Positions 4,827 to 51,146 of a stretch of 64,000 bases of DNA are shown here, piece after piece. This stretch comes from Sphingomonas natans. GTDB taxonomy: Bacteria; Pseudomonadota; Alphaproteobacteria; Sphingomonadales; Sphingomonadaceae. Made by a program: the position numbers and the translations under genes. Location of the stretch: positions 248,001-312,000 of the forward strand of contig NZ_JAUOTP010000001.1 in NCBI RefSeq assembly GCF_030546695.1, written 5' to 3'. The notes beneath the pieces were generated by a model. That model worked only from the letters and a program-made list of their open reading frames with translations. It was not told where the DNA came from and did not search any database. The stretch's first letter is position 1, and each line of letters starts with the position of its first letter.

Positions 4827-5489
4827 TCAGCCCTGCCGTGCGCCCGCGCGAGTCGCGAGCAGATCGAGCAGGCACTGATGATGGAGCAGGATCTGGCGCG
4901 CGCCGAAGACGAGCGTGCGTTCGAGCCGTTCCCTGTCCGGCATGGCGGCGAGCATGTCGGCCGTATCCTCTTCGCTCGGCAGGCGCGGCGCGGTGAAATC
5001 GACGCCGAGGCGGGCCGCTGCGGTCTCGAGCGCGGCACGGATCGGCAGCCAATCGAAGAGCAGGCCCGCGACCGCGCCGATCGCGCAGCCGAATCGATCG
5101 GACCGGGCGATCGTCGCCATCGCCTGACGCTGCGCGATCACTGCGGAGACGGTCGCGGCCTCGCCGGGCGTGCTCGGAACCGGGCCGGCAGCGACGATTA
5201 GGGCGCCGAGATTGCCGCGCTCGGCCGCGAAGCCGCGCACCGCATCGGCGAGCCAGGCGTCACCGCCCGGCCAGATATTATGCTCGGCGACGAGCTCGAT
5301 CAGGCCCGGCTGGGGCCCGTGGAGCATCGTCAGCAGGTGGAGCATGTCCGAAAGGTTGCGCGTGGCGAGCGGCCCCGCATTCAGTTCGGCCGAATGCAGC
5401 CAGGCGTGGGTTGCGCTGCCCTCACCCGCGACGAGCGACGTGAGCAGTCCGCCCCGATCAAGGGCAGAGGGTTCCAGGGCGACGCGCAT
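4827..5489 (-). CDS. Conserved-looking hypothetical protein, alpha-helical
   Basis: A 220-residue soluble protein with no signal peptide or transmembrane segment. Hydrophobic stretches such as NLSDMLHLLTMLHG and AIGAVAGLLFDWLPI suggest an all-helical bundle. I chose the ATG at 5489 because GGAG lies six bases upstream; a TTG four codons earlier is the alternative. I recognise no catalytic motif. It is followed on the same strand by the MerR-ATPase gene at a distance of about 80 bases, so the two may be co-transcribed. Codon use fits its neighbours. Function unknown. Confidence 0.65.
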   Translation of the reverse strand: MRVALEPSALDRGGLLTSLVAGEGSATHAWLHSAELNAGPLATRNLSDMLHLLTMLHGPQPGLIELVAEHNIWPGGDAWLADAVRGFAAERGNLGALIVAAGPVPSTPGEAATVSAVIAQRQAMATIARSDRFGCAIGAVAGLLFDWLPIRAALETAAARLGVDFTAPRLPSEEDTADMLAAMPDRERLERTLVFGARQILLHHQCLLDLLATRAGARQG

Positions 5490-11865: not shown

Positions 11866-11946
11866 CCCGTTCGCACTGAGCTTGTCGAAGTGCTGTTTTT
11901 CTTCTGACCGAGAAGGACGGTGCTTCGACAGGCCCAGCACGAACGG
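11866..11946. repeat. REP-like palindromic repeat, class A copy 1
   Basis: An imperfect inverted repeat of about 80 bases whose arms read CACTGAGCTTGTCGAAG and CTTCGACAGGCCCAGCAC, with an A/T- and purine-rich centre. It lies between the convergent ankyrin and amidohydrolase genes, where the hairpin could end transcription from both sides. Related copies occur at seven other places in the window. Confidence 0.9.
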
Positions 11947-16842: not shown

Positions 16843-16930
16843 CCGTTTGCCCTGAGCTTGTCGAAGGGCGGTACTTGTCTCGAAGCCTTCGAGAGAAGGA
16901 CGGTGCTTCGACAAGCTCAGCACGAGCGGT
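16843..16930. repeat. REP-like palindromic repeat, class A copy 2
   Basis: Arms CCTGAGCTTGTCGAAGG and GCTTCGACAAGCTCAGCAC surround a centre with its own small inverted repeat (CTCGAAGCCTTCGAG). The element lies between the convergent PilZ and murJ genes and is followed on the plus strand by a run of five Ts, so it may serve as the PilZ terminator. Confidence 0.9.
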
Positions 16931-18520: not shown

Positions 18521-18560
18521 GCGCGGCGGCCAGATTTATTCGACATCGGGCCTTCTACGC

Positions 18561-18651
18561 CGTTCGCACTGAACTTGTCGAAGTGCCGTCCTTCTTTCCG
18601 TCGCTGCGAGCAGAAGGAAATACGGTGCTTCGACAGGCTCAGCACGAACGG
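18561..18651. repeat. REP-like palindromic repeat, class A copy 3
   Basis: Arms CACTGAACTTGTCGAAGTG and GCTTCGACAGGCTCAGCAC with a purine-rich centre. It lies between secB and murJ, both on the minus strand. Confidence 0.9.
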
Positions 18652-30108: not shown

Positions 30109-30708
30109 ATGAGCGGAACCACCGAGCCCGAGCCCCCCGCCAAGCTGCCCGTGCCGCAGGAGGTCGCCGATGCGGTCCGCACGCTCATCCGTTGGTCCGG
30201 CGACGATCCCGAGCGCGAGGGCCTGCTCGATACGCCCAACCGCGTCGCGCGCGCGTGGAAGGAATATTGCCAGGGCTATCTCGAGGATCCCGCGTACCAT
30301 CTGAGCCGGACCTTCGAGGAGGTGGGCGGCTATGACGAGATCGTGCTGCTGAAGGCGATCCCGTTCCAGTCGCATTGCGAGCATCATATGGCGCCGATCG
30401 TCGGCACCGCCTCGATCGCCTATCTGCCGCGCGATCGCGTCGTCGGCATCTCGAAGCTCGCGCGCGTGCTCCACGGTTTCGCGAGCCGGCTGCAGGTGCA
30501 GGAGCGGCTCACCGCCGAGGTCGCCGACTGCATCTGGGAGCATCTTCATCCGCACGGCGTCGCGGTCGTCGTCGAGGCACAGCATGGCTGCATGACCGGG
30601 CGCGGCGTGCGCGTCCACGGCGTCGGCATGACGACGAGCCGGATGATGGGCGTGTTCCGCGAAGATGAGAGAAGCCGCCGCGAAGTGCTTGCTTTGATGG
30701 GATATTGA
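30109..30708 (+). CDS. folE: GTP cyclohydrolase I
   Basis: Converts GTP to 7,8-dihydroneopterin triphosphate, the entry step of folate synthesis. The zinc ligands lie in SHCEHHMAP and AQHGCMTGRG, and VVGISKLARVLHGFASRLQVQ is the conserved helix. The N-terminal EREGLLDTPNRVARAWKEY segment fits the family. Length 199 residues. It follows the tRNA-Leu gene by 22 bases. Confidence 0.97.
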   Translation: MSGTTEPEPPAKLPVPQEVADAVRTLIRWSGDDPEREGLLDTPNRVARAWKEYCQGYLEDPAYHLSRTFEEVGGYDEIVLLKAIPFQSHCEHHMAPIVGTASIAYLPRDRVVGISKLARVLHGFASRLQVQERLTAEVADCIWEHLHPHGVAVVVEAQHGCMTGRGVRVHGVGMTTSRMMGVFREDERSRREVLALMGY

Positions 30709-30722
30709 TTACTCTCAAAAAG

Positions 30723-30808
30723 TTCCGCTTGTCCTGAGCTTGTCGAAGGGCCGTCCTTTCTTTCGCGGAACAGAAGAACGGTGCTTCGACAGGCTCAGCA
30801 CGAACGGT
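30723..30808. repeat. REP-like palindromic repeat, class A copy 4
   Basis: Arms GTCCTGAGCTTGTCGAAGGG and GCTTCGACAGGCTCAGCACG, with a centre holding TTTCTTTCGCGGAACAGAAG. Located between the convergent folE and ligD genes. This copy is the closest in the window to the one inside ligD. Confidence 0.92.
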
Positions 30809-30819
30809 TCATGTGAAGC

Positions 30820-33423
30820 TCAAAGCTCCGGCAGCCTTTGCTTCGCCTGTGCCCAGCCCTTGAGCGCCTTCGAGCCCGCCCGCTTCAGCAGCTCCTCCAC
30901 GTCGAGGATCGTGAAGCGGCCGCCGCTCTCGGTCTCCTCCAGCTCGTCCCATGTGATCGGCGCGGCGACCGGCGCATTGGTGCGCGCCCGCGCCGAATAG
31001 GGCAATACCGCGGTCGCGCCGCGCTGGTTGCGCAGCCAGTCGAGGAAGATGCGGCCCTTGCGCTCGGTTTTCTTCATGTTGGCGGTGAAGCGATCGGGAT
31101 GCGCTTCGGAGATGGCGCGCGCGAAGCGGCTCGCGAAATCCTTGACCTCGGGCCAGGCGCGGCTCGCATCGAGCGGCACGACGACATGCACGCCCTTACC
31201 GCCCGAGAGGAGAGGCCAGCTCGCCAGCCCCATCTCGCCGAGCACGTCGCGCAGCTGGGAGGCGGCGCGGCGCACCGCATCGAAGCCCAGCCCTTCGTCG
31301 GGATCGAGATCGAAGACGAGCCGATCGGGCATCTCGACGTCGGCGACCTTCGATCCCCAGCCATGGAATTCGATCGCGCCCATCTGGACGCAGGTCAGCA
31401 GGCCCTTGGCATCGTCGAGATAGAGATAGGGCTCGTCATGCCCGTCTTTCTCGCGGATCGGGACATGCTTGACCGCGTCGCCGAAGCTGCCCGCATCATG
31501 CTTCTGGAAGAAGCACGCTTTGGCGCGGCCCTGCGGGCAGCGGACGAGGCTCACCGGACGATCGCCGAGCCATTCCAGCATCGGATCGACGATGCGCAGA
31601 TAATAATCGGCGAGCTGGCCCTTGGTCAGCCCGCTCTCGGGATAGATGACGCGATCGGGATTGGTGATCGTGACGGGAGAGGGCGTTGCTTTGCCCTTCT
31701 TCTCTTCCGCTTGTGTTGAGCTTGTCGAAGCGCCGCTTTTCTTCTTTTTTGCGTTCGACGAAGAGGATGACGGCGCTTCGACAAGCTCAGGGCGAACGGG
31801 CGAGGGTGTCTCCAGTACCACCTCGCTGGCCGGCTTGTCCTCTCGCAGCGCGATAAAGCTCGGATGACGCAGCACGCCCTCGTCGGTGAATTCGGTGAAG
31901 GCGACTTCGGCGACGAGCTTGGGAGCGATCCAGTGCGCGCCGCGGACGGCCGCGCGCGGGGCGGGGACGGTGGCTGTCTTCTGTTCGAGCGGCGCCATTC
32001 GCTCCATCAGCATGTCGATCGTCTTCATGTCGAAGCCGGTGCCCGCCTTGCCGGCGTAACGCAGCGCGCCATTTTCGTGCAGGCCGAGCAGCAGCGAGCG
32101 GAAGCCGCGCCCCTTGTCCGAGGGCGTCCAGCCGACGATGACAAATTCCTGGCGGTGGATGCACTTAATCTTGAGCCAGCTCTGCGAGCGTCGGCCGACG
32201 CGATAGGGCGCATCCGCGCGCTTCGAAATGATGCCCTCGAGGCCTTGCCCGCAGAGACTTGCGAACAGTTTCTCGCCTTGCCCGGCGATGTGATCGGCAT
32301 AATGGAACGGCGCATCGACACCTTCCAGCAGCGCCGCGAGCCGCGCCTTGCGATCGAGATTGGAGAGGGCGGTCAGATCCGCGCCATCCTGTTCGAGGAT
32401 GTCAAAGGCGAAATAGGCCAGCGTGCCGCCGCCTCCCTTCAGGCTCGCCTGCAGCGCCTGGAAGCTCGGATGGCCCTGCGCATCGAGCGCGACGACCTCG
32501 CCGTCGATCAGCGCCGATCCGGGCAGCGCCGCGGCTGCGGCGACGATGGGCGAGAAGCGATCCGACCAGTCGAGCCCGGTGCGGGTGAACGCCTTGGCCT
32601 TGCCGCCGCCGATCGCGAGCAGGGTCCGGTATCCGTCATATTTGACCTCGTGGATCCAGTCCGATCCCGTCGGCACATGATCGACGAGCGTCGCGAGCTG
32701 TGGTTCGCGAAAAGCGGCCAGGGGCAGGGCCTTACCGGGCTTCTTTGCCTTCTTCTTGGACAGAGGCTCGGCGGTAGCAACCTCAGTCTGCTGGTCCGCA
32801 GCCTGATCCGAATGCCACACGCTCTTGCCGCCGGCGCCCGCCGCGATCTCGACCATCGTCCGCCCGGTCTCGACCGAGGTCAGCGCCTGATCGACGAGAT
32901 CGCCGCTGCCGCCCGCAAACTCGTCCTGGATCTTGCGCAGCAGCCAGTTCTCGCGCTTCTCGCCGGGGCGGGGCTTGAGGCGGATCATCAGCCATTCGCC
33001 CTTCATCCGCTCGCCCTGCAGCGTGAAGTGGAGATGGCCTTCGAGGATCGTCTTGCGTGGATCCTTGTCCGGGTGCGGCGTCCAAGTGCCGCGATCCCAC
33101 AGCATCACCGTTCCGCCGCCATACTCGCCCTTGGGGATCGTCCCCTCGAAGGTCGCATAGCCCAGCGGATGATCCTCGGTGCGGACCGCAAGGCGCTTGT
33201 CGTCGGGGTCGAGGCTGGGGCCGCGCGTCACCGCCCAGCTCTTGAGCACCCCGTCCAGCTCCAGCCGGAAATCCCAATGCAGCCGCGTCGCATCATGCTT
33301 CTGGACCATGAACAAATGGCTGCCCGCCGCGCCGATCGTGCCGGCGGGCTCGGCAGTCTTCTTGAAGTCGCGCTTGGCATTGTAGGTCGCGAGCGGATCG
33401 GCGGCGGGCGCGGCGCGGGCCAT
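30820..33423 (-). CDS. ligD: ATP-dependent DNA ligase D (PE-LIG-POL)
   Basis: An 867-residue multidomain enzyme of bacterial non-homologous end joining. The order is 3'-phosphoesterase (MVQKHDATRLHWDFRLELDG, about 10-170), ATP-dependent ligase (HEVKYDGYRTLLAI with the active Lys in EVKYDGYR, about 240-540) and archaeo-eukaryotic primase-like polymerase (from about 575, TNPDRVIYPESG, RCPQGRAKACFFQKH, VFDLDPDEG with metal Asps). Residues about 542-572, the linker between ligase and polymerase, are encoded by an inserted palindromic repeat. The partner ku gene follows upstream on the same strand, 11 bases apart. The reading frame is intact across the repeat. Confidence 0.96.
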   Translation of the reverse strand: MARAAPAADPLATYNAKRDFKKTAEPAGTIGAAGSHLFMVQKHDATRLHWDFRLELDGVLKSWAVTRGPSLDPDDKRLAVRTEDHPLGYATFEGTIPKGEYGGGTVMLWDRGTWTPHPDKDPRKTILEGHLHFTLQGERMKGEWLMIRLKPRPGEKRENWLLRKIQDEFAGGSGDLVDQALTSVETGRTMVEIAAGAGGKSVWHSDQAADQQTEVATAEPLSKKKAKKPGKALPLAAFREPQLATLVDHVPTGSDWIHEVKYDGYRTLLAIGGGKAKAFTRTGLDWSDRFSPIVAAAAALPGSALIDGEVVALDAQGHPSFQALQASLKGGGGTLAYFAFDILEQDGADLTALSNLDRKARLAALLEGVDAPFHYADHIAGQGEKLFASLCGQGLEGIISKRADAPYRVGRRSQSWLKIKCIHRQEFVIVGWTPSDKGRGFRSLLLGLHENGALRYAGKAGTGFDMKTIDMLMERMAPLEQKTATVPAPRAAVRGAHWIAPKLVAEVAFTEFTDEGVLRHPSFIALREDKPASEVVLETPSPVRPELVEAPSSSSSNAKKKKSGASTSSTQAEEKKGKATPSPVTITNPDRVIYPESGLTKGQLADYYLRIVDPMLEWLGDRPVSLVRCPQGRAKACFFQKHDAGSFGDAVKHVPIREKDGHDEPYLYLDDAKGLLTCVQMGAIEFHGWGSKVADVEMPDRLVFDLDPDEGLGFDAVRRAASQLRDVLGEMGLASWPLLSGGKGVHVVVPLDASRAWPEVKDFASRFARAISEAHPDRFTANMKKTERKGRIFLDWLRNQRGATAVLPYSARARTNAPVAAPITWDELEETESGGRFTILDVEELLKRAGSKALKGWAQAKQRLPEL
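31705..31800. repeat. REP-like palindromic repeat, class A copy 5, inside ligD
   Basis: GTTGAGCTTGTCGAAGCGCCG and CGGCGCTTCGACAAGCTCAGG form perfect-looking arms around a centre rich in T on the plus strand. The 96 bases lie wholly in the ligD coding region and are a multiple of three. They encode a linker beginning RPELVEAP and ending GASTSSTQAEE, with a SSSSSNAKKKK centre. Identity to the intergenic copy at 30723 is obvious by eye. Confidence 0.9.
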
Positions 33424-51068: not shown

Positions 51069-51146
51069 CCGTTGGTCCTGAGCCTGTCGAAGGACTGTCC
51101 TTCCTGGAAAGAAGGACGATGCTTCGACAAGCTCAGCATGAACGGG
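51069..51146. repeat. REP-like palindromic repeat, class A copy 6
   Basis: Arms GTCCTGAGCCTGTCGAAGGA and GCTTCGACAAGCTCAGCAT, centre CTTCCTGGAAAGAAGGAC with its own inverted symmetry. Located between serA and hisZ, which are read in the same direction, so it may modulate read-through. Confidence 0.9.

Follow-up and report, generated by a model that had tools for sequence, protein, structure and literature searches.

Results

The window analysed here is a stretch of 64,000 nucleotides from Sphingomonas natans, part of a 4.56-Mb genome (G000). On its reverse strand it contains ligD (30820–33423), which encodes an 867-residue protein with phosphoesterase (residues 41–148), ligase (243–530, with Pfam ligase C at 438–530) and Prim-Pol (600–850) domains in one chain. 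Beside it, also on the reverse strand, lies ku (PF02735, 33435–34367), whose low-complexity C-terminal tail serves below as a negative control. The comparison uses 80 named LigD loci, the best among 261 relatives; 79 of these 80 have a ku match. AlphaFold2, run with 31 sequences, gives pLDDT <50 at residues 196–230 and 540–579, the two linkers of LigD; elsewhere in the protein only the short segments 1–6, 100–103, and 169–176 fall that low. A LigD review likewise describes the interdomain loops as probably flexible (PMC8656161). The genome also carries a second ligD-like gene (C7:14385–16196; L121, L127), with ligase and polymerase parts at about 62–63% identity, one of which has a stop inside the match.

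The segment 31705–31800 of ligD has two inverted arms that pair in a perfect stem of 19 nt, TGAGCTTGTCGAAGCGCCG. The palindrome folds with −49.6 kcal/mol on the mRNA-sense strand (z = −8.9; equalled by 0 of 200 shuffles) and with −60.5 kcal/mol on the opposite strand (z = −9.5). Its arms align with those of an intergenic copy at 30723–30808, over 31 nt at 90% and 51 nt at 76%; that copy (element limits 30725–30807) lies where the gene for GTP cyclohydrolase I (30109–30708) and ligD converge, between their ends. Stem, folding, and arm alignment thus confirm the claim of the sequence-only reading that a palindromic repeat in ligD shares its arms with this intergenic element. That reading had taken the ligD copy to be 96 bases long. 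The palindrome is there, but the termini CCGTT..AACGG, the consensus of 144 copies, place the element at 31707–31799 on the reverse strand, so that its true length is 93 nt and the earlier limits ran 2 nt too far at the low end and 1 nt at the high end. The length remains a multiple of three, as had been proposed, and its 31 codons are open in the ligD frame. Arm 1, GTG-TT-GAGCTTGTCGAAG-CGC, occupies 31713–31733 (forward strand), and arm 2, GCC-CT-GAGCTTGTCGAAG-CGC, inverted relative to arm 1, occupies 31773–31793 (reverse strand).

The 96-nt segment encodes LigD residues 542–573, PVRPELVEAPSSSSSNAKKKKSGASTSSTQAE. Since solved ligase domains match LigD up to residue 538 and polymerase-domain matches start at 576–584, the site was correctly placed, also by the Pfam limits, between the ligase and polymerase domains. 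The strong hairpin expected in the middle of the message is likewise predicted by the folding, and it stands as a prediction.

The repeat, here called family A, is dispersed. With ≤2 mismatches allowed, its core GAGCTTGTCGAAG is present 21 times in the window; 2.03 copies are expected, and 0 of 100 shuffles reach 21. Besides the copy next to ligD, intergenic copies are found at 11867–11946 (L029), 16843–16929 (L030), 18560–18651, and 51069–51145. In the whole genome, the exact 13-nt core occurs 82 times, compared with 2 for the reversed control, and the 15-nt arm CTGAGCYTGTCGAAG 125 times, compared with 1. That a Ser/Lys-rich linker resembles the repeat by chance, or that the assembly is in error, is therefore vanishingly improbable, and nothing was found in favour of either: the core counts, the perfect 19-nt arms, and the matching termini of the ligD copy all speak against it, as do the analogous inserts seen across many independent assemblies (below).

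The paired copies of family A in G000 number 64, of which 62 were sequenced and two more were located, both outside called genes. The classification covers the 62 paired copies, with 15 unpaired exact cores left out, and uses gene calls near the elements from a codon-usage model trained on the window; the counts by gene position in the other genomes and loci below rest on the same model. Fifty-six are intergenic (22 convergent, 31 co-directional, and 3 divergent). Of the others, 4 overlap the end of a gene and 2, in ligD and dnaE, are internal. Two of the 4 gene-end overlaps, in an Rrf2 regulator and a hydantoinase B protein, resemble C-terminal tails. The 57 elements classified in G003 (paired pattern count 74) comprise 19 convergent, 35 co-directional, and 1 divergent, with a single internal copy, in addB. 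For the 25 classified in G006 (paired pattern count 59), taken to be S. vulcanisoli, the corresponding numbers are 11, 9, and 4, and the one internal copy is in the gene for a Uup-like ABC-F ATPase. Overall, 4 of 144 copies in the three genomes are internal. Thus, the statement that such repeats are mostly excluded from genes holds, with 2 of 62 classified copies internal in the genome of the window. Short arm matches of 17–23 nt within genes (L282, L303, and L315) were judged to be chance.

The sequence of the arms bears on the kind of repeat. The triplets that flank CTGAGCYTGTCGAAG pair with each other within each arm, at 2.77 of 3 positions compared with ≤1.82 in 1000 shuffles (144 elements, three genomes), and the triplets mostly differ between the two arms of an element. 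Family A thus looks less like one long stem than like two separate hairpins joined in a dimer, as in REP dimers. Its elements are mostly extragenic and near gene 3′ ends, their stems covary, and they consist of two inverted units, as in REP dimers and BIME-like elements. The ligD copy itself is without this pairing, its triplets being GTG/CGC and GCC/CGC, so the outer triplets of arm 1 are no longer fully paired, unlike in most copies. REPs of the CGTC superfamily have a CGTC tag at one end, an AT-first stem, and a CCA tail. Family A does not belong there; its arms begin CCGTTCG, mostly with GTG, GCC, or GCA triplets. A longer variant, with ends TCCTGAGGAG, inner part CGTCTCGAAGGAC, and the family A core, forms a second subfamily in G000 (L015, L164, L167, L170, and L174).

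Is the repeat specially suited to coding? Across 126 elements, 0.558 of the frames are open, compared with 0.559 for dinucleotide shuffles, and only 0.205 of the length–frame combinations are viable. We therefore rejected the view that stop avoidance has pre-adapted the repeat to coding.

The second internal copy in G000, which the sequence-only reading had missed, lies in dnaE, the gene for DNA polymerase III alpha (C5:409 kb; L145:996–1080), between the PHP domain, which ends at 176, and the polymerase domain, which starts at 350. The alignment with E. coli DnaE is interrupted around the element, at 309/344. This copy is 85 nt long, not a multiple of three, so neighbouring bases must also have been needed to keep the frame. 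At the same site G005 and G006 have a different palindrome, family C (CCGTTCGTCCCGAGCGAAGTCGAGG...), and G001, G002, G003, and G004 have none.

In the ligase–polymerase linker (linker 2) or elsewhere in the gene, a paired family A core was found in none of the 80 named LigDs (best 80 of 261) and in none of those of the congeners. Comparison of LigD orthologues, as the sequence-only reading had suggested, thus shows the repeat to be absent from the other linkers examined, which vary in sequence and length; the condition named there as refuting, a shared linker in unrelated codons, did not arise. Furthermore, residues 505–600 comprise 96 residues in the LigD of the window, against a median of 65 among LigDs, and 96 minus the 31 encoded by the element is 65. 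The other LigDs being without family A in this linker, the insertion in the ligD of the window is real and derived. The broader claim, that a dispersed repeat has become coding sequence at a domain junction, is thereby supported.

At the matching site, a palindrome of another kind, family B (CCCTCYCCCCTTGTGGG..., with the peptide PSPLVGE...), stands in an open frame in both S. vulcanisoli and G004. Family B arms, with ≤2 mismatches, occur 41 times in S. vulcanisoli, 22 times in G004, and twice in the genome of the window. On the LigD tree, each carrier of family B has an insert-free sister (G006–G005 and G004–G001), and linker 2 is without a palindrome in G001, G002, and G005. In G003, which has 220 family A arms, the maximum for the genus, no palindrome was found in the linkers of those of its LigD genes that were checked. 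Among the matches listed for G006 and G004, family B is also found within ileS and gluQ of S. vulcanisoli. In this species, a family B palindrome also lies directly beside the start of ligD (L301, G006:C1:31256–31404), besides the palindromes in both linkers. The G004 insert holds in its right part a third, nested palindrome (L187, G004:C147, about 4940–4990), which has one genome match and whose dispersal is unsupported.

Many family A elements share flanking bases. In 39 of 123 elements CCC is found within 4–10 nt ahead of the left end, and in 38 GGG follows the right end; the opposite arrangement is seen in 1 and 0 (G000, G003, and G006); the flank concerned in the ligD copy is 31800–31810. 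Because CCC is this common in family A flanks, we dropped the idea that the CCC beside the ligD element is a remnant of family B.

The phosphoesterase–ligase linker (linker 1) was compared across 91 LigD rows, in which G006 and G005 occur twice; 89 rows (G005 twice) could be used for linker 1 and 88 for linker 2. Palindromes were scored ungapped at +1/−2, with a main cut-off of ≥14. At this cut-off, 44 of 89 rows have a palindrome in linker 1, and 3 of 88 have one in linker 2 (the genome of the window, S. vulcanisoli, and G004); control windows in the domains give 0 of 894, with a maximum score of 13. Linker 1 of the genome of the window is itself plain. The 80 named loci (best 80 of 261) have 43 palindromes in linker 1, 1 in linker 2, and 0 in the remaining LigD sequence (199 kb of LigD in total), compared with 10 in 406 kb of other genes, nine of which score 14–15 and one 33, and 96 in 56 kb of intergenic or gene-edge sequence. 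At a score of ≥20, the same loci have 33 in linker 1, 1 in linker 2, 0 in the rest of LigD, 1 in other genes, and 60 in intergenic or edge sequence. The single strong case outside LigD is near the C-terminus of a 518-residue frame in L103. The C-terminal tails of Ku, whose disorder is assumed from composition, contain no palindrome even at score 12 (78 loci of the best 80 of 261, 3631 residues). Thus, low complexity alone does not explain the LigD site.

Simple pattern labels, applied to the linker-1 elements with a score of ≥12, give 22 that are CGTC-like, 24 of family E (TCCTCCCCGGCACGGGGAGGGGGACC and relatives), and 2 of family C. One S. vulcanisoli element (L031), labelled E by pattern, was set apart as B-like by eye, so B is tentative in linker 1. 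Linker 1 therefore hosts at least three palindrome families. With ≤2 mismatches and LigD copies included, the family E arm occurs 27–63 times per genome in 9 genomes with a LigD copy and 4–9 times in 3 others, and the reversed control gives 0. The family E elements are thus genomic repeats and not the product of a coding constraint on LigD.

Near-identical LigDs can carry unrelated elements in linker 1. The ligase parts of L063 (CGTC) and L098 (E) are 98.6% identical (92% in DNA); further such pairs are L065 and L070 (96.0%, DNA 93%), L048 and L088 (96.7%, DNA 93%), and L075 and L079, both named S. faeni (96.0%, DNA 90%). In these pairs, the identity stops at linker 1 and returns beyond it. 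On a quick LigD tree (LG+G4, linkers excluded; 88 rows, of which 85 were scored, three score-11 rows, L050, L069, and L096, being left out), five linker-1 states require at least 23 changes and presence alone requires 13. Shuffled labels give a mean of 40.6, so there is also clustering of the states by descent. From this recurrence, and from the unrelated palindromes in near-identical genes, the LigD linkers look like a hot spot where repeats are captured and exchanged.

These comparisons also bear on the age of the ligD copy. If the LigD linker were ancestrally palindromic, relatives would have lost or eroded their copies, and the copy in the window would be an old resident. S. vulcanisoli and G004 do have another palindrome at the matching site, the three score-11 elements look decayed, and change counts on the tree do not distinguish gain from loss. 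Against this, the sequences of the families differ, and linker 2 is free of palindromes in G001, G002, and G005, of which G001 and G005 are sisters of carriers. We consider an old resident very unlikely and infer that the direction of change was gain.

A second alternative is that the elements are selected rather than tolerated, either since ribosomes would slow at the mRNA hairpin between domains or since the peptide would be a useful flexible, basic linker. It would agree with the confinement of LigD palindromes to the linkers in the 80 loci (44, compared with 0 elsewhere), with the strength of the predicted ligD hairpin, and with the net positive charge that palindromic linkers keep (+0.158 per residue, compared with +0.214 for plain ones). 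However, linker 1 is plain in 36 of 85 scored LigDs, the ligD copy is without the triplet pairing that most copies keep, and the same place hosts unrelated families. Selection is thus possible but rather unlikely as the main explanation.

What moves the repeats? The sequence-only reading had suggested spread by a RAYT. REPINs are built of two hairpins, paired REPs in inverted order, and family A has two inverted hairpins as well; S. vulcanisoli also has one strong Y1_Tnp gene (142 bits; a 185-residue frame, L320, G006:C10:495–851), which may encode an IS200-type transposase or a RAYT. However, PF01797 (Y1_Tnp) has no match in G000 or in G003, despite the 220 arm cores of the latter, while the control search finds matches in 5 of 14 named genomes; the match in G001 is weak and has an internal stop. 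RAYT-driven spread is therefore not supported, and a RAYT or other Y1 transposase as the mover is highly unlikely, a lost or very divergent enzyme being conceivable. Exact direct repeats of 3–6 nt, as expected from target-site duplication, show no significant excess at 123 elements with intact termini, and the per-base excess at 3–4 nt is small, about 2.5 sd (126 elements). Insertion by a conventional transposase is thus unsupported, and family A differs in this from MITEs.

Discussion

We suggest that a dispersed, inverted-dimer repeat inserted in the LigD linker and was kept, as one event of a wider process at LigD linkers, with a probability of about 0.87. An inverted dimer of REP-like hairpins would have entered the ligase–polymerase linker in the lineage of the window. 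The insert would have been kept because its 93 nt are divisible by three and its frame is open, and it now encodes 31 linker residues. Its survival fits tolerance by a disordered linker, which would accept changes of length and sequence, and LigD may function with the insert in place. In the wider process, both LigD linkers would repeatedly capture, exchange, and lose unrelated palindrome families in sphingomonads. Tolerance alone does not explain the excess in LigD over Ku tails and neighbouring coding sequence. The source of this excess may be targeting, or selection acting either on the mRNA hairpin or on the linker itself. A stronger form of this proposal is that LigD linkers are a privileged cassette site, where unrelated dispersed families are inserted, swapped whole, and removed at near the rate of speciation, well beyond what disorder of the linker would account for. 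The linker of a repair protein would then be continually rewritten by the repeats of its own genome, possibly with targeting or selection tied to LigD function. We regard the chances of this stronger form as even.

In-frame insertions of REPs are already known, many of them in DNA-repair genes (Di Nocera et al. 2013, PMC3733652), so the single ligD case is of a known kind. The CGTC- and GTAG-tagged REPs described there lie mostly between convergent or co-directional genes, form dimers, and are in some cases intragenic and in frame; their hosts include many DNA replication and repair genes, with a DNA ligase of O. terrae listed, and also tRNA synthetases. The recB genes of two Xanthomonas have different REPs at about one site, and flexible linkers were proposed as sites that tolerate REPs (PMC3733652). 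The hosts found here, except the uup-like gene, fit these classes of replication and repair proteins and tRNA synthetases. Family A is without the 5′ CGTC tag, unlike those REPs, although the 22 linker-1 elements elsewhere are CGTC by pattern. In the available text of that paper, LigD linkers as a recurrent site and differences of family between near-identical orthologues are not described.

Three other systems invite comparison. The palindromic elements of Rickettsia (Ogata et al. 2000, 2002) are in-frame palindromes in many proteins (PMC10969869, PMC3733652); they belong to another organism, the portions available name no single protein linker as a repeated target, and the likeness is one of in-frame behaviour alone. 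REPIN–RAYT systems (PMC8049555) are alike in their genome-wide repeat populations and differ in that a RAYT-type gene was not found in G000. Bacterial MITEs (PMC10969869) share short inverted repeats and in-frame fusions, whereas family A is without target-site duplication. A search of titles and abstracts, with most subscription journals outside its range, found no description of palindromic repeats in LigD linkers. What is new is the surrounding pattern: LigD linkers are often built from several kinds of repeat, and these differ between near-identical genes.

The occurrence of in-frame palindromes in DNA-repair genes was remarked on in 2013, with no mechanism given in the text available. Linker 1 of LigD provides a dense natural data set for this question, in which matched orthologues are plain, have a CGTC-type REP, or have another palindrome, and the Ku tail is an internal control within the same loci. 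With matched orthologues and this control, tolerance, targeting, and selection become directly testable against each other, as does the movement of repeats without a known transposase.
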